31,771 nt of DNA, from the IMG/VR virus record IMGVR_UViG_3300042691_021530, positions 1 through 31,771 of that record; one strand, given 5' to 3'. The position numbers and the translations under genes are program-made. The first letter of the stretch is position 1. The number at the start of each line of letters is the position of its first letter. The stretch comes from a virus. Below, one piece after another: positions 2,106-27,364 of the stretch. A model generated the notes under the pieces. That model saw only the letters and a list, made by a program, of their open reading frames with translations. It did no database searches and was not told the origin of the DNA.

Positions 2106-3649
2106 GCAAGACCCGCAAGACGCCCGCCCCTAAGAAGCCGCGGGCGCCCCGCCGGCCGGCCGCCAGCCACGAGCCGCAGACGTTCTCCATGCGGTCGCTG
2201 TCGCTGGTCGATCCGCTCGGCCTGTTCGACTCGTCCCTTGCCGGCAAGCCCGAGACGGCGATCCGCGTCACGGCGATCCTCGCGGTCGTCCGGTTCCTCG
2301 CCCAGGCCGTGGCGTCCATGCCCGGCCACATCGTCCGGACGCTGCCCACCGGCCGGCGTGACGCCGCCGACGACCTGCCCGTCGCCTACGTCCTGGGCAA
2401 ACGGCCCAACCCGTGGCAGAGCTCGTACGAGTTCTGGGAGTGGGTTGTCTACACGACCGCGCTCTACGGGAATTCGTTCGCGAAGATCATCCCCGGCCCG
2501 CGGGGCTTCTGCTCCGAGCTGCGGCCGCTGCACCCGACACGGATCAAGGTCGAGAGGTTGTCGGACTACTCGGTCCAGTACTCCTACTTCGAGGCGGACG
2601 GCCGCTGGAAGCCGCTCCGCCAGGGCGAGGTCCTGCACGTTCGGTGGCTCTCCGAGAACGGCCTGGTGGGCATGGCGCCGCCCGAGCTGTGCGCGACGTC
2701 GATCGCCCTGGCCCGGTCCATCGACAGCGCGGCGACGAGCTACTGGGAGAACAGCGCCCGCCCCGATCTCGTCCTGGAGACGCAGGAGACGATCCCGGCC
2801 GAGGCCGTGGCCGCCCTGCGGCAACAGATGCGGGACCTCTACGGCGGCACGGGCAAGCGCGGGTCCGCCGCCGTGCTCCCCCGCAAGATGCAGCTCAAGA
2901 CGATCGACGGGAACACGGCCGAGCAGTCGCAGCTCATTGAGCTGCGAAACGCAGTCGTCGCCGACGTGGCCCGCTGCTGGGGCGTGCCGAGCACGCTGAT
3001 CGGCGACGCGACGATGAACAAGTGGAGCACCGTCGAGCAGGAGCACCTCTCCGCACAGGTCTGGTGCCTGCTGCCGTGGCAGCGCCGGATCGAGGGCGCC
3101 GTCGACCGGACGATCCTGTCGACCTACCAGGAGCAGGGCGACTCGGTCTACTTCAAGCTCGACAACCGCGGCCTCCTGCGGGGCGACACGGCGAGCCGCG
3201 TGCAGCTCTACTCGTCGCTGTGGCAGCAGGGCGCGATCAGCCCCAATGAGATCCGCGACCTCGAGGACCTGCCCCTCCTCGACACGCCGGCCGCCGACCA
3301 GACCTACGTCCAGCTCGGGTTCTCTACGCTCGACAACGCCGCCGCGGCCGTCGCGATGCCGGGGGCGCCGGCGGAGCCGCAGCCGACGCCAGACGCCGAG
3401 GACGGCTACGGCGAGAGCGTCGACCAGGCCGGCGGGTTCTCCGTCGGCCAATACGTCTACTGGGCCGACGGCGAGGGCACGATCGAGCACCTGATGACCG
3501 CCGGCCTTCTCGGCGTCGAGGGCTCGCCGTTTGCCATTCAAGCGACGCCGGACGACCCGGCCGCCCTGGTCCGGATTCATCGCGACGGCAGCGCTACGGA
3601 GCTGCTCGTCGGCAAGCGGACGGCGGAGCTGTCCGCGGAGCCAGTGTAG
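2102..3649 (+). CDS. Portal protein, HK97 family, with extra C-terminal Tudor-like domain
   Basis: The 515-aa protein forms the dodecameric portal ring through which DNA enters and leaves the capsid. HK97-portal hallmarks are visible: AILAVVRFLAQAVASMP near the start of the core, PNPWQSSYEFWEWVV, TTALYGNSFAKI, and a C-terminal core with WGVPSTLIGD and NEIRDLEDLP. A basic Lys/Pro-rich leader of about 25 residues precedes the core. Residues about 446-511 form a separate small domain (FSVGQYVYW ... ATPDDPAALVRIH ... ELLVGKRTAEL). I recognise it as the Tudor/SH3-like accessory domain usually found on other phage head proteins. The start overlaps the terL stop. Confidence 0.94.
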   Translation: MSKTRKTPAPKKPRAPRRPAASHEPQTFSMRSLSLVDPLGLFDSSLAGKPETAIRVTAILAVVRFLAQAVASMPGHIVRTLPTGRRDAADDLPVAYVLGKRPNPWQSSYEFWEWVVYTTALYGNSFAKIIPGPRGFCSELRPLHPTRIKVERLSDYSVQYSYFEADGRWKPLRQGEVLHVRWLSENGLVGMAPPELCATSIALARSIDSAATSYWENSARPDLVLETQETIPAEAVAALRQQMRDLYGGTGKRGSAAVLPRKMQLKTIDGNTAEQSQLIELRNAVVADVARCWGVPSTLIGDATMNKWSTVEQEHLSAQVWCLLPWQRRIEGAVDRTILSTYQEQGDSVYFKLDNRGLLRGDTASRVQLYSSLWQQGAISPNEIRDLEDLPLLDTPAADQTYVQLGFSTLDNAAAAVAMPGAPAEPQPTPDAEDGYGESVDQAGGFSVGQYVYWADGEGTIEHLMTAGLLGVEGSPFAIQATPDDPAALVRIHRDGSATELLVGKRTAELSAEPV

Positions 3650-3658
3650 GAGGGAACC

Positions 3659-4624
3659 GTGAACACGCCCGAGCGCCGCTATCTGCCGACCAACGACTAC
3701 CCCGACGCGATTCGCGTCGAGAAGCGTGACGGCCAGCCGACGATCCTCACCGGCATCTCCCCGCCGTGGGACTCGCTGTCGGCCGACCTCGGCGGCTTCC
3801 GCGAGAAGTTCTCACCGACCGCGTTCGACGGCATCGTCGACCGGCACCCCAACGACCCCCGCCCTAAGCTCGACGTCCCGTTCCTCCGCGACCACGACCC
3901 GAGCCTGATCACCGGCCGGACGACGAACGGCCGCCTCGAGATTTTCAAGGACGCGAAGGGCCTCGGCTACCGCCACGACCCGATCCAGACCTCGGCGGGC
4001 CGCGACCTGCTGATGCTCGTCGAGGACCGCACGATCACCGGCGCCTCGTTCGCGTTCACGACCGCCCCCGACGGCGAAGTATGGACGGAGGACGACAAGG
4101 GCAATCCGATCCGGACGATCTACCGGGCCTCGGGCCTGTACGACATCTCGGCCGTGACGTACCCGGCTTACCCGAGCTCGAGCATCGCTCCCCGGTCGCT
4201 CGACGCCTGGCGGGCCGCGCGTGGAGTTGTCGGCGAGTCGTCCGGCCTCACGATCTCTCTCGACTACGACCAGACCTACACCGCGGCCCCCGGGCTCTGG
4301 CGGTCGTTCATCCTCGACGCCGGCAACCGCGGCGCGAAGGTCGTCTGCATCACTCGCCGGGCCGACACGCCCGAGAACCGGGCCGCCGTCCAGGCCGGCT
4401 TCGGTGACGCGTATGAGGCCCTCGCCGGCGTGGTGCTCTGCGGACCCGACACGCTCAAGCGGGCGGCCGCCGAGGCCGCCGGGATCGACGTCGATATCTG
4501 GATCGACGATTCGCCCCAGCTCATCGGCGAGCCGGCGAAGCGTTCGGTCGTGGCGACGACGGACATCGGCCGCCGGGCAGCGGCCGCGGCAGCGATCGCG
4601 AGGCTCCGTCATGCAGCCGGCTAA
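3659..4624 (+). CDS. Prohead protease (S78) fused to a HAD-like domain
   Basis: Residues 1 to about 185 are an HK97 gp4-like maturation protease that would cleave the capsid delta domain. It has the catalytic-type His in LRDHDPSLITGRT (H79), the Ser in ITGASFAF (S130) and the closing DISAVTYPAYPSS. After a short linker, residues about 197-290 carry all four HAD-superfamily motifs in order: ISLDYDQTYT (D202, D204), VVCITRR (T232), Lys in DTLKRAAAEAAGI (K267) and DIWIDDSP (D283, D284). The two domains share one continuous reading frame. The start is GTG with GGAGGG at 3649-3654. The HAD substrate is unknown; self-cleavage by the protease could release the domain. Confidence 0.9.
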   Translation: MNTPERRYLPTNDYPDAIRVEKRDGQPTILTGISPPWDSLSADLGGFREKFSPTAFDGIVDRHPNDPRPKLDVPFLRDHDPSLITGRTTNGRLEIFKDAKGLGYRHDPIQTSAGRDLLMLVEDRTITGASFAFTTAPDGEVWTEDDKGNPIRTIYRASGLYDISAVTYPAYPSSSIAPRSLDAWRAARGVVGESSGLTISLDYDQTYTAAPGLWRSFILDAGNRGAKVVCITRRADTPENRAAVQAGFGDAYEALAGVVLCGPDTLKRAAAEAAGIDVDIWIDDSPQLIGEPAKRSVVATTDIGRRAAAAAAIARLRHAAG

Positions 4625-4769
4625 CTGCCAGCGGTGCGGGGCACGGATGCGGACGGTCTCGTCCAAGCGGCACGGGACCGCCCAGGTCCAATACCTCGCC
4701 TGCACGGCCTGCCCGGCGAAGCGGTCCCGGGTCGTCGACGCGGCCCACGTCTGGAGGAGGAAGAAATGA
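4611..4769 (+). CDS. Small zinc-ribbon protein
   Basis: This 52-aa protein has two Cys pairs, NCQRCGA near the N-terminus and ACTACPA near residue 35, spaced as in a treble-clef or zinc-ribbon fold, and ends in a basic tail. It starts 14 bp before the protease stop and its TGA overlaps the next gene's ATG (ATGA), so it is translationally coupled on both sides. A role in nucleic-acid or protein binding is plausible but not shown. I do not recognise a named family. Confidence 0.75.
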   Translation: MQPANCQRCGARMRTVSSKRHGTAQVQYLACTACPAKRSRVVDAAHVWRRKK

Positions 4770-5137
4770 TCTCAAGCGCCCCCGCCCACGCCGCGAGCGA
4801 CGTCGCCGAAGTCACCGAGAAGATCTCGGCGTTTATAGCGGTCGCCCGCGTCAAGGCCCGCGACGGCCTGACGGTCGCCGAGTTCGGCGAGCTGACGGTC
4901 GCCCTGATGCGGATCGTGATCGCAGCGGTCGACGTCCTGGCGATCGACGGCAGCCGCCGGAAGGAGGTCGTCCTCGAGGCGGTGGCCGCCCTGTTCGACG
5001 CCGTGGCCGACAAGGCCGTCCCGACGCTGGCCTGGCCGGTCTGGTTGATCGTCCGCCCGACCGTCCGCCAGCTCGTCCTCCTCGCGGCCGCCGGCGCCGT
5101 CGAGAGCCTCCTGCCCCTCGTGAGGATCGCCTCGTGA
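4766..5137 (+). CDS. Hypothetical protein with C-terminal hydrophobic segment
   Basis: The protein is 123 aa. The ATG at 4766 is preceded by GGAGGAGG at 4753-4760, a very strong ribosome site, so this start is preferred over upstream in-frame ATGs. The first 80 residues look helical and amphipathic (LTVAEFGELTVALMRIVIAAVDVL). Residues about 85-120 form a hydrophobic hairpin-like region starting at LAWPVWLIVRP. It could be a holin-like or membrane-associated phage protein, but I recognise no family. It opens a run of membrane proteins that interrupts the usual protease-capsid order. Confidence 0.75.
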   Translation: MISSAPAHAASDVAEVTEKISAFIAVARVKARDGLTVAEFGELTVALMRIVIAAVDVLAIDGSRRKEVVLEAVAALFDAVADKAVPTLAWPVWLIVRPTVRQLVLLAAAGAVESLLPLVRIAS

Positions 5138-5676
5138 CGTCCGTCGTCCTGCTGATCGCCGCCGCCGCCGTGCTGCTCTGGCCGTCGCTCTCCGAGCGGT
5201 TCGGGAAGCTCACGCTCCCCAAGCTCGACGGGAAGCAGCTCGTCGCCCTCGGCCTGGCGGCTGTCGGCGTGGCGCTCCTGTTCACCGGCCGGTCGGCCGG
5301 CCCGACGCCGGCCCCGCCCGAGCCCGCGGCGTTCACGCTCCGCGGGAAGTTCGTCGGACCCGACGCCAGCCGGGACGCCAGCACAACGGCCGCCCTGCTC
5401 GACGAGCTCGCCAACGAGATCGAGTGGGACGGGATGCAACCGGAACCCTACCTGAAGACGGGCGTCTCGTTTGACGACCTGCGGGTCCGGGCTCGGAACC
5501 TGCTCTGCCGGGGCGTGAGCCTGGGCGACAAGCACCCGCGGGCACGCGAGGCAATCAAGGCTTACCTCGACCAGGCCGCCGGCACGAGCGGCGGGCCGGT
5601 CTCGCCCCAACAGCGGGCCGCCTGGGTTGCGGCCTACCGCGAAGTCGCGAGGGCCGCCGCCGATGCGTCGCGATGA
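5134..5676 (+). CDS. Hypothetical membrane protein, two N-terminal TM segments
   Basis: This 180-aa protein starts with GTG in a GTGA overlap with the previous stop. Residues about 3-17 (SVVLLIAAAAVLLWP) and 36-51 (LVALGLAAVGVALLFT) are transmembrane segments separated by a short charged loop. A Pro-rich linker and a soluble helical domain of about 115 residues follow. The topology would place the soluble domain on one face of the membrane, next to the anchored peptidase encoded immediately downstream. The function is unknown; a lysis-accessory or exclusion role is only an inference from context. Confidence 0.75.
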   Translation: MTSVVLLIAAAAVLLWPSLSERFGKLTLPKLDGKQLVALGLAAVGVALLFTGRSAGPTPAPPEPAAFTLRGKFVGPDASRDASTTAALLDELANEIEWDGMQPEPYLKTGVSFDDLRVRARNLLCRGVSLGDKHPRAREAIKAYLDQAAGTSGGPVSPQQRAAWVAAYREVARAAADASR

Positions 5677-6766
5677 CCGCCTGCCACAACTGATGGCCGC
5701 GGCCCTGCTGGCCGGCATGGCCTTCGTCGTGTCGCTCGAGCTGCTCTGGCGCGAGCGGCCGGCCGCCGTCGGCGGGAACCAGTTCGGCTACACGCCGGAC
5801 CCCGAGGGCGTGGCCGCCTTTATGGCGTCCCTTCCGCAGCCGATGTTCCGGCAGGCCGGGGCGGACGCGATGGCAAAGTCGAAGGGGCTCGACACGTTCC
5901 TCTTCCGCGCCATGCAGAAGGCGCACCGCGCGCGGTACGGTTCCGACTTTGTCGTCGGAAAGCAGCTCAACGGGAGCTGCGTCGCGTGGGGGGCAATGCA
6001 CGCTGTCTTTTGCGCGGAGGCCGTGTCGTGGGAGCTGGGCGAGCTCCAAGATCCGCCGACGCTTCCCGCGACCGAGCCACTGTACGGAGGATCGCGCGTC
6101 GAGGCGAGGCGAGGGAACCCTCAAGGGTATGACGGTTCCTCGCCCGTTGGCGGATGGTCCGACGGCTCGTTCGGGGCAGCGGCCGCCCGCTGGCTCCGCG
6201 ACTGGGGCGTGATCTACCGCAAGCCATACGAGGGCCTGTTTGACTACACGACGTACGACGCGACCCGCGAGAAGCACGAGGGCGCGTACGGAGCCGGCGG
6301 CCAGGGCGACAACTACCGGATCGACACGCTCGCCAAAAAGCACCCGTGTAAGCACGTCGTAAAAGTGTCCACCTGGGAGGAGCTCTCGGCAGCTCTGGAG
6401 TCTGGGTACCCGTGCACGGTCGCCAGCTCGCAGGGCTTCGACTCTGTCGCGATCAAGGGCATCGCCGAGGCCGGCGGGACGTGGCAACACCAGATGATGA
6501 TCTGCGGGATCGTCCACAAGAAAAACGGCAACGCGCCCGACGACCTCGCGTGCATCCTCAACAGTTGGGGACCTCGCTGGCTCCGGTACGAGGGCGGCAA
6601 GTTCCCGGCAGACCTTCCAGACGGCGCCTTCTGGGCCAGGAGGAGCGTCGTCGAGCGGATGATCTCGTCCGACACATGGGCGATCGGTGGCGTCGGAGGG
6701 TTTTCGTACCGCGACCTTCATAACGGCAACTGGCTCACCCCTGCACCGGAGGAAAATGTGAGATGA
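5663..6766 (+). CDS. Membrane-anchored papain-like cysteine peptidase (C1-like)
   Basis: The 367-aa protein starts at an ATG 14 bp inside the previous gene, preceded by GAGGG. An N-terminal hydrophobic anchor spans residues about 11-29. The peptidase core has a C1-like triad: Cys106 in LNGSCVAWGA with a nearby Gln101 (oxyanion-type), His276 in TWQHQMMICGI, and Asn300 in CILNSWGPRW, which matches the papain NSWG signature. About 40 residues after the NSWG motif complete the fold. It could cleave envelope proteins or peptide cross-links during lysis, or process virion or host proteins. A cysteine peptidase inside a head-gene cluster is unusual. The fold is fairly sure; the role is not. Confidence 0.85.
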   Translation: MRRDDRLPQLMAAALLAGMAFVVSLELLWRERPAAVGGNQFGYTPDPEGVAAFMASLPQPMFRQAGADAMAKSKGLDTFLFRAMQKAHRARYGSDFVVGKQLNGSCVAWGAMHAVFCAEAVSWELGELQDPPTLPATEPLYGGSRVEARRGNPQGYDGSSPVGGWSDGSFGAAAARWLRDWGVIYRKPYEGLFDYTTYDATREKHEGAYGAGGQGDNYRIDTLAKKHPCKHVVKVSTWEELSAALESGYPCTVASSQGFDSVAIKGIAEAGGTWQHQMMICGIVHKKNGNAPDDLACILNSWGPRWLRYEGGKFPADLPDGAFWARRSVVERMISSDTWAIGGVGGFSYRDLHNGNWLTPAPEENVR

Positions 6767-7017
6767 CGCTCGACCGGAAGACCTTGATCACCGTCGCCGC
6801 CGCCCTGGCCGTGGGCTACTGGCTCGCGGGCCGCGAAGCTACGCCGGCCCCGCCGGATCGCCCCGTCCTCCGCTGGGTCGTGAAGGCCGCGAAGAATTTG
6901 CTCTGGGTCGCGCTCATCGCCGAGGAGCCGCCGGCCGAGCCCGAGAACAGCTACCGCCACCACGACCACGTCGGGGCCGACGGCTACCGCCTGGTCGACC
7001 ACGGGAGGGGCTGGTGA
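6763..7017 (+). CDS. Small membrane protein
   Basis: This 84-aa protein has a TM helix at residues about 7-22 (TLITVAAALAVGYWLAG) and a second amphipathic or hydrophobic segment at 38-52 (WVVKAAKNLLWVALI), followed by a polar, His-containing tail. GGAGGA lies at 6748-6753, the ATG overlaps the peptidase stop (ATGA), and the 3' end overlaps the next gene. It sits directly after the anchored peptidase. It might assist export or act as a small holin, but no family is recognised. Confidence 0.7.
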   Translation: MTLDRKTLITVAAALAVGYWLAGREATPAPPDRPVLRWVVKAAKNLLWVALIAEEPPAEPENSYRHHDHVGADGYRLVDHGRGW

Positions 7018-7280
7018 TGCGCGACGCCCTGATCTCGTTCCTGGTCTGGTTGTCGGCCGAGCCGGCGGCCCTCGAGCTCGACCCGCCCCGAGCCGCGGCC
7101 GCCGTCGCGGCCGCCAGGTCGTCGCTGGCGGTCGAGGCCCCCGCCCCGCCGGCACCGAGCCCCACGCCCGAGAAGTGCTGCTCCGACTGCGGCGGCACCG
7201 GCGTGATCGTTCACGGCGACGGCCACCGCACGCCCTGCCCCTGCCCGGCTAGCTGCCCCTGCAAGAGGACCAAGAAATGA
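7017..7280 (+). CDS. Small protein with Cys-rich (DnaJ-type) C-terminus
   Basis: The protein is 87 aa from the ATG at 7017 (a GTG at 7014 is equally usable). GGAGG lies at 7004-7008. It has a short hydrophobic N-terminus, an Ala/Pro-rich middle, and a C-terminus with eight cysteines including CSDCGGTGV, which is the CxxCxGxG element of DnaJ zinc fingers, followed by PCPCPASCPCK. It probably binds zinc. It is the last of the compact membrane/zinc cassette; its stop overlaps the next ATG. Confidence 0.7.
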   Translation: MRDALISFLVWLSAEPAALELDPPRAAAAVAAARSSLAVEAPAPPAPSPTPEKCCSDCGGTGVIVHGDGHRTPCPCPASCPCKRTKK

Positions 7281-7969
7281 GCACTGAATTTTCCCTGTCG
7301 TCTCGGATCACCGTGAGCCCCCGCCAGGAAGGCGACGGATTCCTCCAGGCCCCGTCCGTCGTCTCGACGTTCGCCCTGACGGACGGCAGCAGCGACGGCC
7401 AGGCGAACGCCATGTGGCATAAAGAATTGACGATCGCCGCGGACTCGTCGCAGACGCTCGACCTGACGAGCCTAAGCGTGAACGCGTTCGGGCTGTCCGG
7501 AAACCTGTACTTCTGGAAAATCCGCACGCTGTATATCTGCAACACCTCGACCACGACCCCGGTCACGGTGTTCGCCGAAGACGCGGAAAATAATCCTTGG
7601 CAGGCGCTCTACACCGTGCCGATCGACCTCGCCCCGGGCGGAACGCTGCTGGCGATGGACCGGGCCGGCTGGCTCGTCGGCGGGTCGAGCAAGACGATCA
7701 AGATCGCCAACGACTCGACGATTTACTCGATCACCGGCGACACGACGAGCGGCTCGACGGTCGTCTCGGACATCGAGGACACCGACGACCTGGCCGTCGG
7801 CATGACGGTCACCGGGACCGGCATCCCGACCGGCGCGAAGGTGGTCCAGAAGACGGCGTCGACGATCACCCTAAGCGCGGCCGCCACGGCCACGACAGGC
7901 AACGTATCGCTGAATGTGTTCCTGCCCGACCCGGTCGTGGTCTTCAGCCTGGCCGGCGTGCTGGACTGA
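7277..7969 (+). CDS. Probable head decoration or accessory structural protein
   Basis: The 230-aa protein is rich in Thr, Ser and Val with beta-strand character throughout. Residues about 150-215 hold a recognisable small beta module (TTSGSTVVSDIEDT ... LAVGMTVTGTGIPTGAKV ... TITLSAAATAT) that recurs in phage and bacterial surface proteins. Its place immediately before the major capsid gene is typical of decoration proteins, which is the basis for the call. The start is an ATG in an ATGA overlap. A fibre or minor head protein would fit the sequence equally well. Confidence 0.6.
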   Translation: MSTEFSLSSRITVSPRQEGDGFLQAPSVVSTFALTDGSSDGQANAMWHKELTIAADSSQTLDLTSLSVNAFGLSGNLYFWKIRTLYICNTSTTTPVTVFAEDAENNPWQALYTVPIDLAPGGTLLAMDRAGWLVGGSSKTIKIANDSTIYSITGDTTSGSTVVSDIEDTDDLAVGMTVTGTGIPTGAKVVQKTASTITLSAAATATTGNVSLNVFLPDPVVVFSLAGVLD

Positions 7970-7982
7970 AATTCCTACGATA

Positions 7983-8052
7983 GTCCGCTGCAAACTTCAG
8001 CGGGCGAGCTGGCGGCCTGATTCTGGTGGGCGGTACGGAAACCACCCCACCA
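7983..8052 (+). promoter_or_regulatory. Paired hairpins upstream of the capsid gene
   Basis: This is one of only two real gaps in the head operon. It holds a stem CCGCTG/CAGCGG (7985-7990 with 7998-8003, 7-nt loop) and a second stem TGGTGGG/CCCACCA (8024-8030 with 8046-8052, 15-nt loop). The capsid ATG follows with a modest AGGA at 8057-8060. The hairpins may stabilise the capsid message or mark a processing or regulatory point; no clear -10/-35 pair was seen. Confidence 0.45.
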
Positions 8053-8069
8053 GCACAGGACCCCAGACA

Positions 8070-9287
8070 ATGAAGCTCCGCACGCTCCAGGACGAGTCGG
8101 CAAAGGTTATCGCCGAGCTCGAGACGCTCCGCTCGTTCTCCTCGGACAACGCCGAGGAAGTCGCGACCGCCCAGGCTCGGATCGACGAGCTGTCGGCCCG
8201 GTCCGACAAGATCGCCGCCGATGTTCAGCGGGAGCTCGCCCTTGACGCGAAGCTCGCGGCGCTGCGGACCGTGATCTCGAGCGACTCCGACGCCCGTGGC
8301 GTCGTGGCTCCGGAGCCGGAGCAGAAGGACCTGGCGGCCGAGATCCGCTCGGGCGTCAAGGCGTTCTCCTCGGCGAAGGCCGCGGCGGCCGTCGGCGGCT
8401 ACCTCCGCCAGCTCTACACCGGCGAGATCCGGGCGATGGGCGAGACGAGCACGACGTACGACCTTCTCGGTGCCGAGTTCGTCGTGAAGGAGCTCTATAA
8501 CGCGATCGTGAACCGGCTCCAGTACAGCTCGGTCGCGCTCCAGCTCGCGACGGTGGTCCGGCCCAACGGCCAGAAGATCTCCTTCCCGAAGGTGGGCGAC
8601 GCCACCGCGTCGTTCGTGGCCGAAGGCGTGGCGACGTCCGACCAGGACATCGCGACCAGTGCCGCCGACCTGACGCTCTATGAGCTGCGGGCAAGCGTCG
8701 CCGTCTCGCGGAGCCTGATCGAGGACAGCCCGATCGACGTGGCCGGCCTCGTGGCGGAGCGGTTCGCTCTGGCCTACGCGAGCAAGTTCGACGCGACCTG
8801 GCTCGGCGGCAACGCCTCCAGCCCGTCGATCACCGGCCTGGCGGCCTCGGTGGCTGGTGGCAACACCATCACCGTCGGCGTCAGTGCCGCGACGACCGTC
8901 GCCAACCTGGCCGACGTGGTCGGCAAGGTCGACGAGACCCTGATGGGATCGGCCTCGTGGGTCTGCTCGAAGGCAGGCTGGGTCGATCTCATGAAGCTCT
9001 GGGCGGCCCAGCAGACGACCATGACGGTCGGCGGCGGGCGGATCGTTCCGACGATCTTCGGTGCCCCGGTCTACCTCGTGAAGGGTTTGCCCGCGACGAC
9101 GCTCGCCCTGTACGGCGACTTCTCGATGGCATCGGCCGTCGGCCTCAAGGCGTCCGGCCTCGAGATCGAAGCCGGCCGCGAGATCCTGATGCGGAATCGT
9201 CAGGTCCTGTACGTGGCGAACACCCGGTTCGGCGTGGCTAACCACGCCCCCGAGTTCGTCGGTCGCCTGGCGAAGGCCACCTCGTAG
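8070..9287 (+). CDS. Major capsid protein, HK97 fold
   Basis: The 405-aa protein assembles the icosahedral head. Residues 1 to about 100 are charged and coiled-coil-like, as expected of a delta scaffolding domain removed by the S78 protease. The remainder has HK97-type features: VVRPNGQKISFPKV, then FVAEGVATSDQD, LYELRASVAVSRSLIEDSP, AERFALAYASKFDATWLGG and the C-terminal REILMRNRQVLYVANTRFG. The start at 8070 is chosen because upstream in-frame sequence is non-coding in character and crosses the hairpin region. A strong hairpin lies just after the stop. Confidence 0.94.
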   Translation: MKLRTLQDESAKVIAELETLRSFSSDNAEEVATAQARIDELSARSDKIAADVQRELALDAKLAALRTVISSDSDARGVVAPEPEQKDLAAEIRSGVKAFSSAKAAAAVGGYLRQLYTGEIRAMGETSTTYDLLGAEFVVKELYNAIVNRLQYSSVALQLATVVRPNGQKISFPKVGDATASFVAEGVATSDQDIATSAADLTLYELRASVAVSRSLIEDSPIDVAGLVAERFALAYASKFDATWLGGNASSPSITGLAASVAGGNTITVGVSAATTVANLADVVGKVDETLMGSASWVCSKAGWVDLMKLWAAQQTTMTVGGGRIVPTIFGAPVYLVKGLPATTLALYGDFSMASAVGLKASGLEIEAGREILMRNRQVLYVANTRFGVANHAPEFVGRLAKATS

Positions 9288-9303
9288 TAGCGACAAGGGC
9301 TCA

Positions 9304-9337
9304 AGGCCCGGGGCGGCAAGGACGCCGCCCCGGGCTT
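9304..9337 (+). terminator. Strong terminator-like hairpin after the capsid gene
   Basis: A perfect 12-bp G+C stem (9306-9317 with 9324-9335) closes a 6-nt loop AAGGAC, extended by a G-T and an A-T pair. Only TTCTG follows, so there is no long U tract. It may be a weak or partial terminator, or a 3' mRNA stabiliser that raises capsid expression over the downstream connector genes. Confidence 0.65.
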
Positions 9338-9349
9338 CTGCCTGCCCAC

Positions 9350-9535
9350 ATGGAAAACATCCGACTCATCAAGGCGTTCCGCGGCTACCGGGCCGGGCAA
9401 GTGATCCAGGTCACGCCCGACCTCGCGAAGGTCCTCGGGGAGTCGGGAGTCGCGGTTCCGGACCGGCAGACGGTCCTGCCGCAGATCTCGGAGCGGGCGG
9501 TCGCGCCCGGCCCGCAAGCCGCCGAAACGAGATAG
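9350..9535 (+). CDS. Small conserved phage protein between capsid and connector
   Basis: This 61-aa protein begins MENIRLIKAFRGYRAGQVI, a beta-rich pattern I associate with short phage proteins found right after capsid genes. The rest is a short helix (LAKVLGESG) and a disordered tail. No clear strong ribosome site precedes the ATG, which sits 12 nt after the capsid hairpin. The function is unknown; a minor head role is likely from position. Confidence 0.65.
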   Translation: MENIRLIKAFRGYRAGQVIQVTPDLAKVLGESGVAVPDRQTVLPQISERAVAPGPQAAETR

Positions 9536-19905: not shown

Positions 19906-20805
19906 TTACGCCGACTGTGCTGGTGGTTCCGGCTCTGGACGGAACACCCGCGGTATCGCCTGCCAGGCCTTCGGACGCGTCTGGTCGACCACGCGCGGGT
20001 CGAGGTAGGAGCGCCTCGTGATCCGGTCCGTTGAGTGCCCGAGGTACGCCGTCGCGTCCAGGCCGGCGGCCGCCAGGTGGGACGCCGTCGACCGCCGCAG
20101 GGCGTGGAACTGGACGTCCCGGCCGTCGCCGAGCCCGGCCCGACGCGTGATCGTCTTCCACCGTTTGCGGAGCGCGGTATCGGACGCGAGCCACCAGAAC
20201 ACCGTCGGCCCCTCGTGGCGGCTCACGGCGTCGACGAGGTCGCAGGCCTCGGGCGACAGCTCGTAGACGCGTTCCTGCCGGCGGCCCTTCCGGATCGAAG
20301 CCGGCACCGTCAGCGTCGGCCGCGTCCAGCAGTGCCGCGGCGTCTTCAAGATCGCATTGATCCGCTCGCCGGTCTCCAGGCCGACAGCGATCAGAGCCCG
20401 GAAAAACACGCCCGCCGGGATCGGCCCGACCCATCCCCAGGAGTAATTCGCGGCGGCCGCCAGGCGGACGAGCTCGTCGGTGGTGAACGCGCGGGGCACG
20501 CCCTGCGGCACGAGCTCGGGCGCTACCGTCGGCCGCAGCTTCACGAGCCCGCGTCCCTGGGCAAGGTTCCACAGGGCGAGCAGGCCCGACCGCTCGCGGG
20601 CGACGGAGTTCGCCGACTTCTTCTCCGCCATCGCGGCCAAGAACTGGGACACGACCAGGTCGTCGAGGTCCTCGAGCACGGCGGGCCGGCCGAGCCACCG
20701 GGAGAATTGCGTGATCGCGTGCCGCAGAAGACGGACGCTTTCAGCGGAGCGGCCCCGCAGGCGGAGCGGGACGTAGATGGTCGTCAAAAACTTTTCGAGC
20801 GTCAT
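19906..20805 (-). CDS. int: Tyrosine recombinase (integrase)
   Basis: This 299-aa protein would integrate the phage by site-specific recombination. Its catalytic set is complete: Arg148 in GLETGERINAIL, Lys173 in IRKGRRQ, HALRR (H234, R237), YLGHST (H257) and the nucleophile Tyr267 in RRSYLDPR. An N-terminal SAM-like DNA-binding domain covers residues about 1-90. The start at 20805 has GAGGAGG upstream on the minus strand; the longer frame to 20952 crosses the intergenic region. It is the only supported minus-strand gene and is convergent with the gene ending at 19831. Confidence 0.95.
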   Translation of the reverse strand: MTLEKFLTTIYVPLRLRGRSAESVRLLRHAITQFSRWLGRPAVLEDLDDLVVSQFLAAMAEKKSANSVARERSGLLALWNLAQGRGLVKLRPTVAPELVPQGVPRAFTTDELVRLAAAANYSWGWVGPIPAGVFFRALIAVGLETGERINAILKTPRHCWTRPTLTVPASIRKGRRQERVYELSPEACDLVDAVSRHEGPTVFWWLASDTALRKRWKTITRRAGLGDGRDVQFHALRRSTASHLAAAGLDATAYLGHSTDRITRRSYLDPRVVDQTRPKAWQAIPRVFRPEPEPPAQSA

Positions 20806-20880
20806 GGCGTGATCCTCCTCGACATAGGGATAGGTCACGCTTCCTTGCGGGGTTGCTCCCTTCCTGGTGGAGTGCCGGTC

Positions 20881-25232: not shown

Positions 25233-25693
25233 TGACGGAGCACAGGCAGCAGATTCAATCCGAGCTCGAGGTGATCAGGTCGCATCACGGCGGCGTGCTG
25301 CGACCGGAAGACGTCGTGAAGTTTGCCCGCAACAAGCGGACAGCTCTTCACGCGGAGTTCGAGTGGGACGACAAGAAGGCGTCGGCCGAGTATCGGCTCT
25401 GGCAGGCCAGGACGGTGATTCGTGTCGCGGTTACGGTCCTGCCGTCGCCGCATTCGAGCGACGATCCGGTCCGGGCGTACGTGTCGATCGCGAGTGATCG
25501 CGTTCGGCCAGGCGGCGGCTACCGCGCCTTGGCCGACGTCATGAGCAGCGACGAGCAGCGGGCCGAGCTGCTGCTGGAGGCGATCGGCGAGGTCAAGCGT
25601 TGGCGGCGGAAGTACGACCGGCTCCGCGAGCTGGTGCCGATCTTCCGCGCGATCGACAAGGTAGATCAGAAGCAAGAGGCTGGTGTCGCGTGA
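25232..25693 (+). CDS. Conserved phage protein of unknown function
   Basis: This 153-aa protein has AAGGAG at 25220-25225 and an ATG overlapping the previous stop. The stretch FEWDDKKASAEYRLWQART followed by VIRVAVTVL is a pattern I recall from hypothetical proteins in many phages, often beside the preceding type of gene. The C-terminal third is helical and basic (ELLLEAIGEVKRWRRKYDRL). It ends immediately before the GGCNN repeat array. A DNA-metabolism role is only a guess from location. Confidence 0.72.
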   Translation: MTEHRQQIQSELEVIRSHHGGVLRPEDVVKFARNKRTALHAEFEWDDKKASAEYRLWQARTVIRVAVTVLPSPHSSDDPVRAYVSIASDRVRPGGGYRALADVMSSDEQRAELLLEAIGEVKRWRRKYDRLRELVPIFRAIDKVDQKQEAGVA

Positions 25694-25696
25694 CAA

Positions 25697-26106
25697 GGCA
25701 GGCTTGGCAGGGCACGGCGAGGCAAGGCGTGGCAAGGCGTGGCAAGGCAAGGCAGGCAGGGCAAGTCGCGGCCTGGCTCGGCGCGGCTCGGCGTGGCAGG
25801 CGTGGCCCGGCATGGCTCGGCTCGGCAGGGCTGGGCGCGGTTTGGCAAGGCAGGCGAGGCTAGGCGGGGCGAGGCGGGGCGCGGCACGGCATGGCAGGCA
25901 AGGCGGGGCTTCGCAGGGCGTGGCCAGGCGAGGCATGGCAGGCAGGGCATGGCGTGGCGTGGCAGGCATGGCAAGGCGAGGCGAGGCTCGGCCAGGCGCG
26001 GCCAGGCGCGGCAGGAATGGCACGGCAAGGCGTGGTTAGGCGCGGTGAGGCGAGGCTCGGCAGGCAGGGCGTGGCAAGGCGCGGCAAGGCCCGGCATGGC
26101 AGGCAA
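25697..26106 (+). repeat. 84-unit GGCNN pentamer array with ten GGCA tetramers
   Basis: The entire gap between two genes parses, without remainder, into 84 units: 74 pentamers of form GGCNN and 10 tetramers, every one of them GGCA. The GGC core is intact in 78 units, while the two following bases vary (AA, GT, GA and GC are most common). The GGCA units start at 25697, 25751, 25795, 25849, 25893, 25937, 25961, 26010, 26059 and 26098, mostly 39-54 nt apart. Open frames in several phases are a by-product of the period and do not look like protein. Possible roles are given in the findings. Confidence 0.9.
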
Positions 26107-26124
26107 GGTTTTCTTTCTGAAAGG
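26106..26124 (+). repeat. T-rich leader element, copy 2
   Basis: This is the second copy of the 19-nt RGGTTTTCTTTYTGARAGG element, directly at the end of the GGCNN array and running into the AAGGAG (26121-26126) of the next gene. See copy 1 at 24505-24523. Confidence 0.55.
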
Positions 26125-26135
26125 AGTCGCAACTG

Positions 26136-27035
26136 ATGGCCGGTGAATGGATCCCCTACGACGTCTGCCTGCCGCACAAGCCCGAGGTCCTCGAGCTCGT
26201 GGACATGACGGGCCTCGAGGTCGACCAGGTGGTCGGCCGCCTGGTCCTGCTCTGGGGCTGGGCCTCGCTCAACAGCTCGGACGGGACGGCCCGGCTGTCG
26301 GTCCGGCTGCTCTGCCGGCTGTGCGGCGGGGACGAGGCTTTTTGGGAATCGGTCCAGTCGGTGGGCTGGCTCGTGATCGACGCGGAGGCGGGAACTGTGG
26401 CGATCCCCGGATGGGAGCGTCGGTTCTCCAAGACCGCGAAGAGCCGGGCGATGGAAACGGCCAGAAATCAGGCCGCAAACGCCAAAAAGGACACGTCTAC
26501 GCGCGCGGCGCGTACGTCTACGCGCGCAGCGCGTGCGCACAACGCGCGCGGCGCGTCAGAGAGAAGAGATAGAGGAGATAGAATTTCTTCTTCTTCCCCC
26601 GAGGTCGCTGCGCTCGAGGAGCCCGGCAGCGGGCCTTCCGGCCCGCCTGGCTGGGAGACGCTCCGGGAGGCCTGGAGGGCCGGCAAGGGCCGCCCGTGGG
26701 CTCTCCCGACGGCCCCGGACCGGGCAGCCGACCGGCTGGCCGAGGACGGGTGGTTCGAGAAGGCCCTGGCGGCGATCGACCGGCTCCCGGCCTGCAAGTA
26801 CTTCCGCGACCCGGTGACGCTGCCCCAGTTCGTGGCGCCGGGGTTCGTGGACAAGATCCTGGGCGGGCAGTTCGACAACGCCCGGGACGCAGCTCGAGGT
26901 CCGGCCCGGCTGGACGACCGGCCCCCGCCCCAGGAATGGCGTGGGGAGGACGCGGCCCGGTTCGAGGCGACGAAACGGGCGATGGCAGACAAGCTCCGGG
27001 CGATGGAGTCCGGGGTTGGTTCGGTTGATTCCTGA
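26136..27035 (+). CDS. Replication initiator-like protein (phage winged-helix N-terminus)
   Basis: The 299-aa protein opens EWIPYDVCLPHKPEVLELVD, then VVGRLVLLWGWASLNSSDG, AFWESVQSVGWLVID and IPGWERRFSKTAKSRA. I recognise this as the N-terminal domain of phage replication or DnaD-like proteins. A low-complexity linker (residues about 120-165) holds three iterons in its DNA. The C-terminal part (WETLREAWRAGKGRPW, KYFRDPVTLPQFV) resembles the helicase-loader-contacting end of such proteins. The role is inferred: origin binding and helicase recruitment. AAGGAG lies at 26121-26126. Confidence 0.75.
   Translation: MAGEWIPYDVCLPHKPEVLELVDMTGLEVDQVVGRLVLLWGWASLNSSDGTARLSVRLLCRLCGGDEAFWESVQSVGWLVIDAEAGTVAIPGWERRFSKTAKSRAMETARNQAANAKKDTSTRAARTSTRAARAHNARGASERRDRGDRISSSSPEVAALEEPGSGPSGPPGWETLREAWRAGKGRPWALPTAPDRAADRLAEDGWFEKALAAIDRLPACKYFRDPVTLPQFVAPGFVDKILGGQFDNARDAARGPARLDDRPPPQEWRGEDAARFEATKRAMADKLRAMESGVGSVDS
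26499..26595 (+). other. Probable replication origin: three phased iterons plus A+T-rich stretch
   Basis: Within the initiator-like gene, ACGCGCGC[G/A]GCGCGT occurs at 26499-26513, 26520-26534 and 26542-26556, spaced 21 and 22 bp, that is two helical turns. Copies 1 and 3 are identical. The next 39 bp (26557-26595) are 25/39 A+T in an otherwise G+C-rich gene, with a purine run then a pyrimidine run. This layout copies the lambda origin inside gene O. Function is inferred. Confidence 0.65.
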
Positions 27036-27049
27036 ACGAAAGGACTCGT

Positions 27050-27364
27050 ATGCGATTTCTCAACGGATTGATTCTTGCCCTCCTGCTCTGCGGTGCCGCC
27101 TCGGCCCAGACGACGATCGTCGCGCGCCGCCCGGTGATCGTGACGGCGCAGGATCACGCCCTGGTCCTCGCACGCCGGGGGACGCTCGTGCACTCGAGCT
27201 GCGGACAGACGGAGGGGATCGGCTGCGGTGCGACTGCACAGCAGGCGCGGGAGAATTCGTGTTACTACCGCGACGCGATGGCAGGCCGCCGCGTGATCGT
27301 CGACGAGGGCGTAGCCTACTCGCCGGCGACGCGCCGGTGGTTCGCGGTGATCCGGTACCGATAG
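27050..27364 (+). CDS. Small secreted protein with signal peptide
   Basis: The 104-aa protein starts with a clear Sec signal, MRFLNGLILALLLCGAASAQ, cleavable after ASA (near residue 19). The mature part has three cysteines (SSCGQ, GIGCGA, NSCYY) and ends RWFAVIRYR. The ribosome site AAAGGA is at 27039-27044. I associate this pattern with small exported proteins of planctomycetes, but the role is unknown. In a phage early region it may be a lysogenic-conversion gene. The coupling to the initiator-like gene is loose (14 bp gap). Confidence 0.7.
   Translation: MRFLNGLILALLLCGAASAQTTIVARRPVIVTAQDHALVLARRGTLVHSSCGQTEGIGCGATAQQARENSCYYRDAMAGRRVIVDEGVAYSPATRRWFAVIRYR

Follow-up and report, generated by a model that had tools for sequence, protein, structure and literature searches.

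Among the described systems closest to the locus analyzed here are the holin–endolysin–spanin cassettes of phages, in particular those of the SAR-endolysin type exemplified by P1 Lyz, in which an exported, anchored enzyme is encoded beside small membrane proteins in a late operon. Lyz is subject to disulfide control, and elsewhere the task of cutting peptidoglycan falls to NlpC/P60, CHAP or lysozyme-type enzymes. A functional analogue only is provided by PeiW and PeiP of methanogen phages, which are wall peptidases that lyse hosts with a non-standard wall (PMC4592898, PMC2989375), the target bond there being an Ala-epsilon-Lys isopeptide. Planctomycete walls have been characterized as a 'protein sacculus with disulfide bonds' (PMC2754498), and peptidoglycan was later detected in these bacteria (reviewed in PMC10632474). 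In Planctopirus limnophila, murABCDEFGJ are dispensable, several wall-gene deletion mutants grow and look normal, and the essential genes include one for a Cys-rich YTV-domain protein (PMC10632474). Our literature search for accounts of host lysis by planctomycete phages found no description.

The locus lies in an IMG/VR record of 31.8 kb and ~68% GC, which was analyzed whole and is referred to here as the window. The phage is a temperate siphovirus-type phage with terminase, portal (E 1e-77), prohead protease (3659–4624, plus strand; Peptidase_S78, E 3e-28), major capsid protein (8070–9287, plus strand; Phage_capsid, E 5e-27), tail genes and a tyrosine integrase (19909–20838, minus strand). 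An earlier, sequence-only reading of the window had placed a five-gene block at 4766–7280 between the HK97-type prohead protease and the capsid gene, and both the genes and their position are confirmed. On the plus strand, these are TM1 (4766–5137; 123 aa), a candidate holin with two hydrophobic segments; TM2 (5134–5676), with two N-terminal membrane segments and a C-terminal helical domain; PEPT (5663–6766), a putative N-terminally anchored papain-type cysteine peptidase; TM3 (6763–7017; 84 aa), with a weakly hydrophobic N terminus; and CYS2 (7017–7280), with 7 Cys in 87 aa. Three small membrane proteins had been counted, which holds for TM1 and TM2, both clear by hydropathy, whereas TM3 is a borderline case. 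The Cys-rich proteins reported at both ends are present, namely CYS2 and, on the upstream flank, a 52-aa ORF with four Cys and weak zinc-ribbon matches that stay below the cut-off (4611–4769, plus strand). Downstream follows a 230-aa protein of unknown function (7277–7969, plus strand; phrog_22694) that travels with the cassette. Neighboring genes overlap by 4 nt at 4766, 5134, 6763 and 7277, by 14 nt at 5663 and by 1 nt at 7017; because starts and stops overlap, translational coupling of the cassette genes is likely. The earlier reading had taken coupling to mean expression together with the head genes; coupling stops short of the capsid gene, which begins after a gap of 100 nt from the 7277–7969 gene. 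In a scan of 3400–9500 no promoter- or terminator-like sites were found; by gene position, with overlapping genes inside the head operon here and a place at the end of the tail operon or before terminase in relatives, the cassette would be late and co-transcribed with the structural genes.

On its own, PEPT had no match in Pfam, PHROGs, NCBIfam, PDB or 50,697 phage records; its relatives had no matching entry in Pfam, PHROG, NCBIfam or INPHARED, and the lowest E value that Pfam Peptidase_C1 reached among 35 PEPT members was 0.16. The PEPT-family profile aligned with papain C1 (hhalign probability 92, E 5e-7), and in an hmmsearch against PDB the matches listed were C1-type, with cathepsin V, ficin and silicatein at the top (E 2e-4), and the catalytic His and NSWG motif aligned with their counterparts. 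Alignments showed C106, H276 and N300 to be kept in all of 35 close relatives; across 20 diverse relatives C106, H276 and Q101, a candidate oxyanion residue, are kept and N300 becomes Gln in three (QSWG), the N300-S-W-G context being present in nearly all members. Judged by its catalytic residues and the statistical profile match, PEPT would be a member of papain family C1, in agreement with the earlier description of a C1-like peptidase with a complete Cys-His-Asn set and an N-terminal anchor; the latter is predicted by hydropathy as an A/G-rich hydrophobic segment at residues 6–30. PEPT shares with the MEROPS C1 papains the Cys-His-Asn set, the NSWG motif and a Gln preceding the catalytic Cys. 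It differs from them in being phage-borne and membrane-anchored, in carrying extra sequence around the core and in having Gln for Asn in three distant members; moreover, its Gln stands at −5 from the Cys, versus −6 in papain. Neither NlpC/P60 nor CHAP matched PEPT, no known peptidoglycan hydrolase domain was found in it with Pfam, PHROG or NCBIfam, and no peptidoglycan-binding domain was seen. The gene is under purifying selection (dN/dS 0.06–0.43; 0.05–0.27 for the Cys-rich ORF at 4611–4769) and in many cases its conservation exceeds that of the capsid gene (77% versus 39% in L019).

A first scan of IMG/VR recovered 181 relatives of PEPT and a broader profile found them in at least 578 loci, while queries headed by distant members gave 573, 208, 70 and 453 matches in overlapping sets. 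Genes were called in 460 peptidase-bearing loci, a sample weighted towards each query's best matches; the loci fall into 95 clusters at 70% identity. The hosts of the cassette phages are Planctomycetota. PEPT members occur in 13 of 392 Planctomycetota genomes, and two order-level searches each found them in 17 of 150, compared with 1 of 289 genomes of an alphaproteobacterial group, a phylum contrast to be read in light of the broad profile having been applied, among cellular phyla, to Planctomycetota. That single genome is the seed MAG (L083) that had pointed to Alphaproteobacteria; since it alone matched, an alphaproteobacterial host is unlikely and the assignment is probably a binning error. 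Several PEPT members are integrated prophages within long contigs, and others are carried by phages of 100–220 kb.

The partner genes are closely tied to PEPT. Matches to a TM1 HMM occurred in 242 loci, nearly all at position −2 or −3 relative to PEPT; 266 of the 281 TM2 matches lie directly upstream of it, and TM3 gave 192 matches at +1 or +2. The TM1-TM2-PEPT-TM3 order is kept in ~77 of 81 loci, and this constancy, together with purifying selection on PEPT, argues that the cassette is not a chance assembly. In several relatives the protein in the TM2 position is a lipoprotein. A secreted TM2-like variant carries a PKD-like segment, and its C-terminal domain resembles that of TM2; all 120 of its matches are directly upstream of PEPT, with none elsewhere in ~7,400 genes, and it is probably homologous to TM2, as suggested by an hhalign probability of 81 (E 1e-5). 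The window copy of CYS2 bears the motif CSDCGGTG..HGDGHRTPCPCP..CPCK, and CYS2-like proteins have C..C.GTG....GDGH..PC in common. In many relatives an exported thioredoxin domain, with WCGPC or a similar sequence, comes after this motif and exceeds the Pfam cut-off in L344, L446 and L131; a thioredoxin domain with CxxC is absent from CYS2 of the window. Of 112 thioredoxin/CYS2 matches, 105 stand at +1 to +3 of PEPT. Overall, an upstream partner is found in 66 of 90 clusters and a downstream partner in 35 of 90. PHROG and Pfam searches of the small cassette proteins returned nothing usable.

Synteny in related phages was as an independent module would have it, the cassette being kept in hundreds of phages at no fewer than three operon positions. 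In lineage 1 (the window, L019–L022, L031, L077 and others), which has an HK97 capsid, the order is protease-cassette-capsid. Lineage 2 has a GpA-type terminase, a lambda-type portal and a protease–capsid fusion, and here the cassette closes the tail operon, opposite the integrase and the early region. In the prophages L131 and L548 the cassette lies directly upstream of the terminase gene, and in L138 and L139 among neck and tail genes. Wherever phage context is readable, it stands in late structural operons and not in the lysogeny region. That its order remains constant while the surrounding capsid and tail genes change points to a functional module and not to a part of morphogenesis; head or tail parts are unlikely to move so freely, whereas lysis cassettes do, and mobility therefore favors a lysis module. 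Genes within the cassette are also exchanged. In L003 the capsid dS is 0.17 and that of PEPT 0.90, and at L055:1955–4617 PEPT and TM3 are replaced (58% and 49% identity) amid close neighbors (capsid 84%, TM1 and TM2 78%). The Cys-rich ORF at 4611–4769 is found in 15 of 81 loci, only beside lineage-1 cassettes. The phrog_22694 protein, which follows the cassette in the window, precedes TM1 in lineage 2 and may belong to the module.

Copies of the cassette are also found in cellular surroundings. At L137:10119–11856 (minus strand) and L544:4639–7107 (plus strand) it occupies the same cellular locus of two planctomycete genomes (89% identity, with a flanking gene in common and no phage genes nearby), and consists of a small hydrophobic protein, a lipoprotein and the peptidase, L544 having in addition a Cys-rich thioredoxin lipoprotein; these copies are possibly domesticated. 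A pair comprising a secreted helical protein and a peptidase is present at L546:9826–11344 (plus strand) and L547:10480–12339 (minus strand), in cellular neighborhoods that are syntenic between two genomes and have no phage genes nearby. The four cellular copies indicate that the PEPT family can act outside phages.

An N-terminal anchor or signal is predicted on PEPT in 46 of 92 clusters, some of the signals being Tat-like (for example MDRRDFIKIGLGG in L372), and the gene at −1 is predicted to be exported in 65 of 84 clusters, versus 4.6% of distant genes. Because of these anchors and signals and the exported neighbor, the cassette most likely acts outside the cytoplasmic membrane. In 46 of 84 clusters at least one of the four genes before PEPT encodes a small protein with two hydrophobic segments, versus 1.0% per gene; these proteins include GxKTY types, and one, in a relative, weakly matches a holin PHROG (E 0.0012). 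Most of the two-segment neighbors matched no holin family, and TM1 matched no holin family and no PHROG or Pfam family. We rejected the notion that an unanchored PEPT is always accompanied by a separate holin and an anchored one never, as holin-like neighbors occur with both, and less often with unanchored (14 of 40 clusters) than with anchored enzymes (32 of 44).

The absence of a classical endolysin from the window, already asserted in the sequence-only reading, was borne out by a Pfam search (E 1e-3) of its 49 proteins, which found no endolysin, holin or spanin. A conventional holin/endolysin set elsewhere in the genome would speak against the cassette as a lysis module. Terminal overlaps indicate complete genomes in lineage 1 (G004, 127 bp) and lineage 2 (G008, G012 and G015), and in three of these such a set was sought and not found: at E 1e-3 against Pfam, the whole proteomes of G004 and G015 contained no endolysin, holin or spanin family, and for G012 none was among the 25 of 28 matching families listed. 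In addition, Amidase_2, Phage_lysozyme and Peptidase_M15_4, the three endolysin families scanned, were found in none of 40 peptidase-bearing contigs, of which ten are 100–221 kb long and most are perhaps incomplete; control searches gave matches.

Taken together, these observations suggest that the cassette probably has a late lysis role of some kind. That it is specifically a late lysis module with a protein wall as its target is the reading we favor, by a little over even chances. The earlier proposal of a protease-based lysis module is partly supported, as the reading best backed by the mobility of the set, the export signals and anchors, the holin-like neighbors and the want of a classical endolysin in the window and in three related genomes with overlapping ends. 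Lysis, its substrate and timing, and the roles of TM1, TM2 and CYS2 are what we infer from these features. In the proposed mechanism the lysis module would be expressed late from within the head operon, and TM1, or the separate two-segment proteins of relatives, would serve as the holin. PEPT would reach the periplasm by its N-terminal signal anchor in the window phage; some relatives would use Tat-like or Sec-like signals, and in those with no signal the enzyme would be released through the holin. There its Cys-His-Asn site would cleave an envelope protein, most likely of the Cys-rich, disulfide-bonded planctomycete wall. As a helical domain beside PEPT that is anchored in the membrane or by lipid, TM2 might position or restrain the enzyme, and CYS2, in many relatives an exported thioredoxin, might open wall disulfides or keep the enzyme active. 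Given a protein wall and dispensable mur genes, a protein-cutting enzyme with a disulfide reductase would fit better than a muralytic one. Against lysis of a protein wall stand TM1 and most two-segment neighbors, which match no holin family, the half of the clusters that have no anchor or signal, with a holin-like gene in only 14 of 40 of them, and the copies in cellular neighborhoods; a position between protease and capsid is, moreover, unusual for lysis genes.

Every argument for lysis applies equally if PEPT is an endolysin that cuts the cross-bridge or stem peptides of peptidoglycan, a papain-type recruit with a SAR-like anchor. NlpC/P60 and CHAP enzymes have the papain fold in common, and planctomycetes do contain peptidoglycan (PMC10632474), which also counts against a protein-wall target. 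We nevertheless consider a peptidoglycan target unlikely: the C-terminal H..NSWG is the motif of protein-cutting C1 papains and not of NlpC/P60 or CHAP, no peptidoglycan-binding domain was seen, the peptidoglycan genes of P. limnophila are dispensable, and the thioredoxin partner is better explained by a disulfide-bonded protein target.

The position between prohead protease and capsid in lineage 1, and between neck and tail genes in some prophages, could instead reflect a virion or maturation factor that processes a structural protein while particles assemble at the membrane, or one that travels inside the virion and opens the envelope at entry. Membrane anchors and Tat- or Sec-like signals on PEPT are at odds with such a role, as is the recurrence of the same set, with exported and not structural partners, beside unrelated capsids and tails, and we see little likelihood in it. 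We would give equally little credence to a prophage-expressed, envelope-modifying module for exclusion or host fitness, which would remove a surface receptor or the proteins of rival phages. A predicted anchored extracytoplasmic protease in integrase-bearing temperate phages, and the cassette copies in cellular neighborhoods where no phage genes are nearby, would suit such a module. However, where context is readable the cassette occurs within late structural operons and outside the lysogeny region, which tells against the exclusion system raised in the sequence-only reading; in the window it lacks a promoter-like site of its own, it occurs also in phages of 100–220 kb, and an exclusion role would leave these genomes with no recognized lysis enzyme.

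Read as a lysis module with a protein-wall target, the cassette belongs to a known type of system, and its novelty would lie in enzyme class, partners and host phylum. The putative redox partner is reminiscent of Lyz and its disulfide control; unlike in SAR-endolysin cassettes, PEPT is a homologue of protease-type papains and not a known muralytic domain, the exported thioredoxin and TM2 have no counterpart there, and no Rz-like spanin was identified. PeiW and PeiP would belong to a different family from PEPT, and we know of no anchor, TM2 or thioredoxin partner for them. A bolder proposal, which we put forward tentatively and with considerable doubt, is that a whole group of Planctomycetota phages swapped peptidoglycan endolysins for lysis of a disulfide-bonded protein wall by protease plus thioredoxin, and that host chromosomes hold domesticated copies. 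If the lysis reading is correct, the cassette would give a bacterial phage a means of lysis based on proteolysis and not on peptidoglycan cleavage, and a phage enzyme would make the old dispute over whether protein or peptidoglycan bears the load in the planctomycete wall testable. Hundreds of so far nameless phage genes would also gain an annotation, and metagenomics a marker gene for viruses of planctomycetes.

Three further features of the window deserve mention. The prohead protease (3659–4624) has a C-terminal extension at about residues 197–315 (phrog_4256/4919), whose SLDYDQTY motif looks HAD-like and which forms a second domain fused to the protease. Overlapping frames with Arg/Gly/Ala/Trp-rich repeats at 25669–26146 probably represent a tandem DNA repeat and not a gene. 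Lastly, a 104-aa signal-peptide protein encoded at 27050–27361 has relatives in both phage lineages despite their unrelated structural genes.
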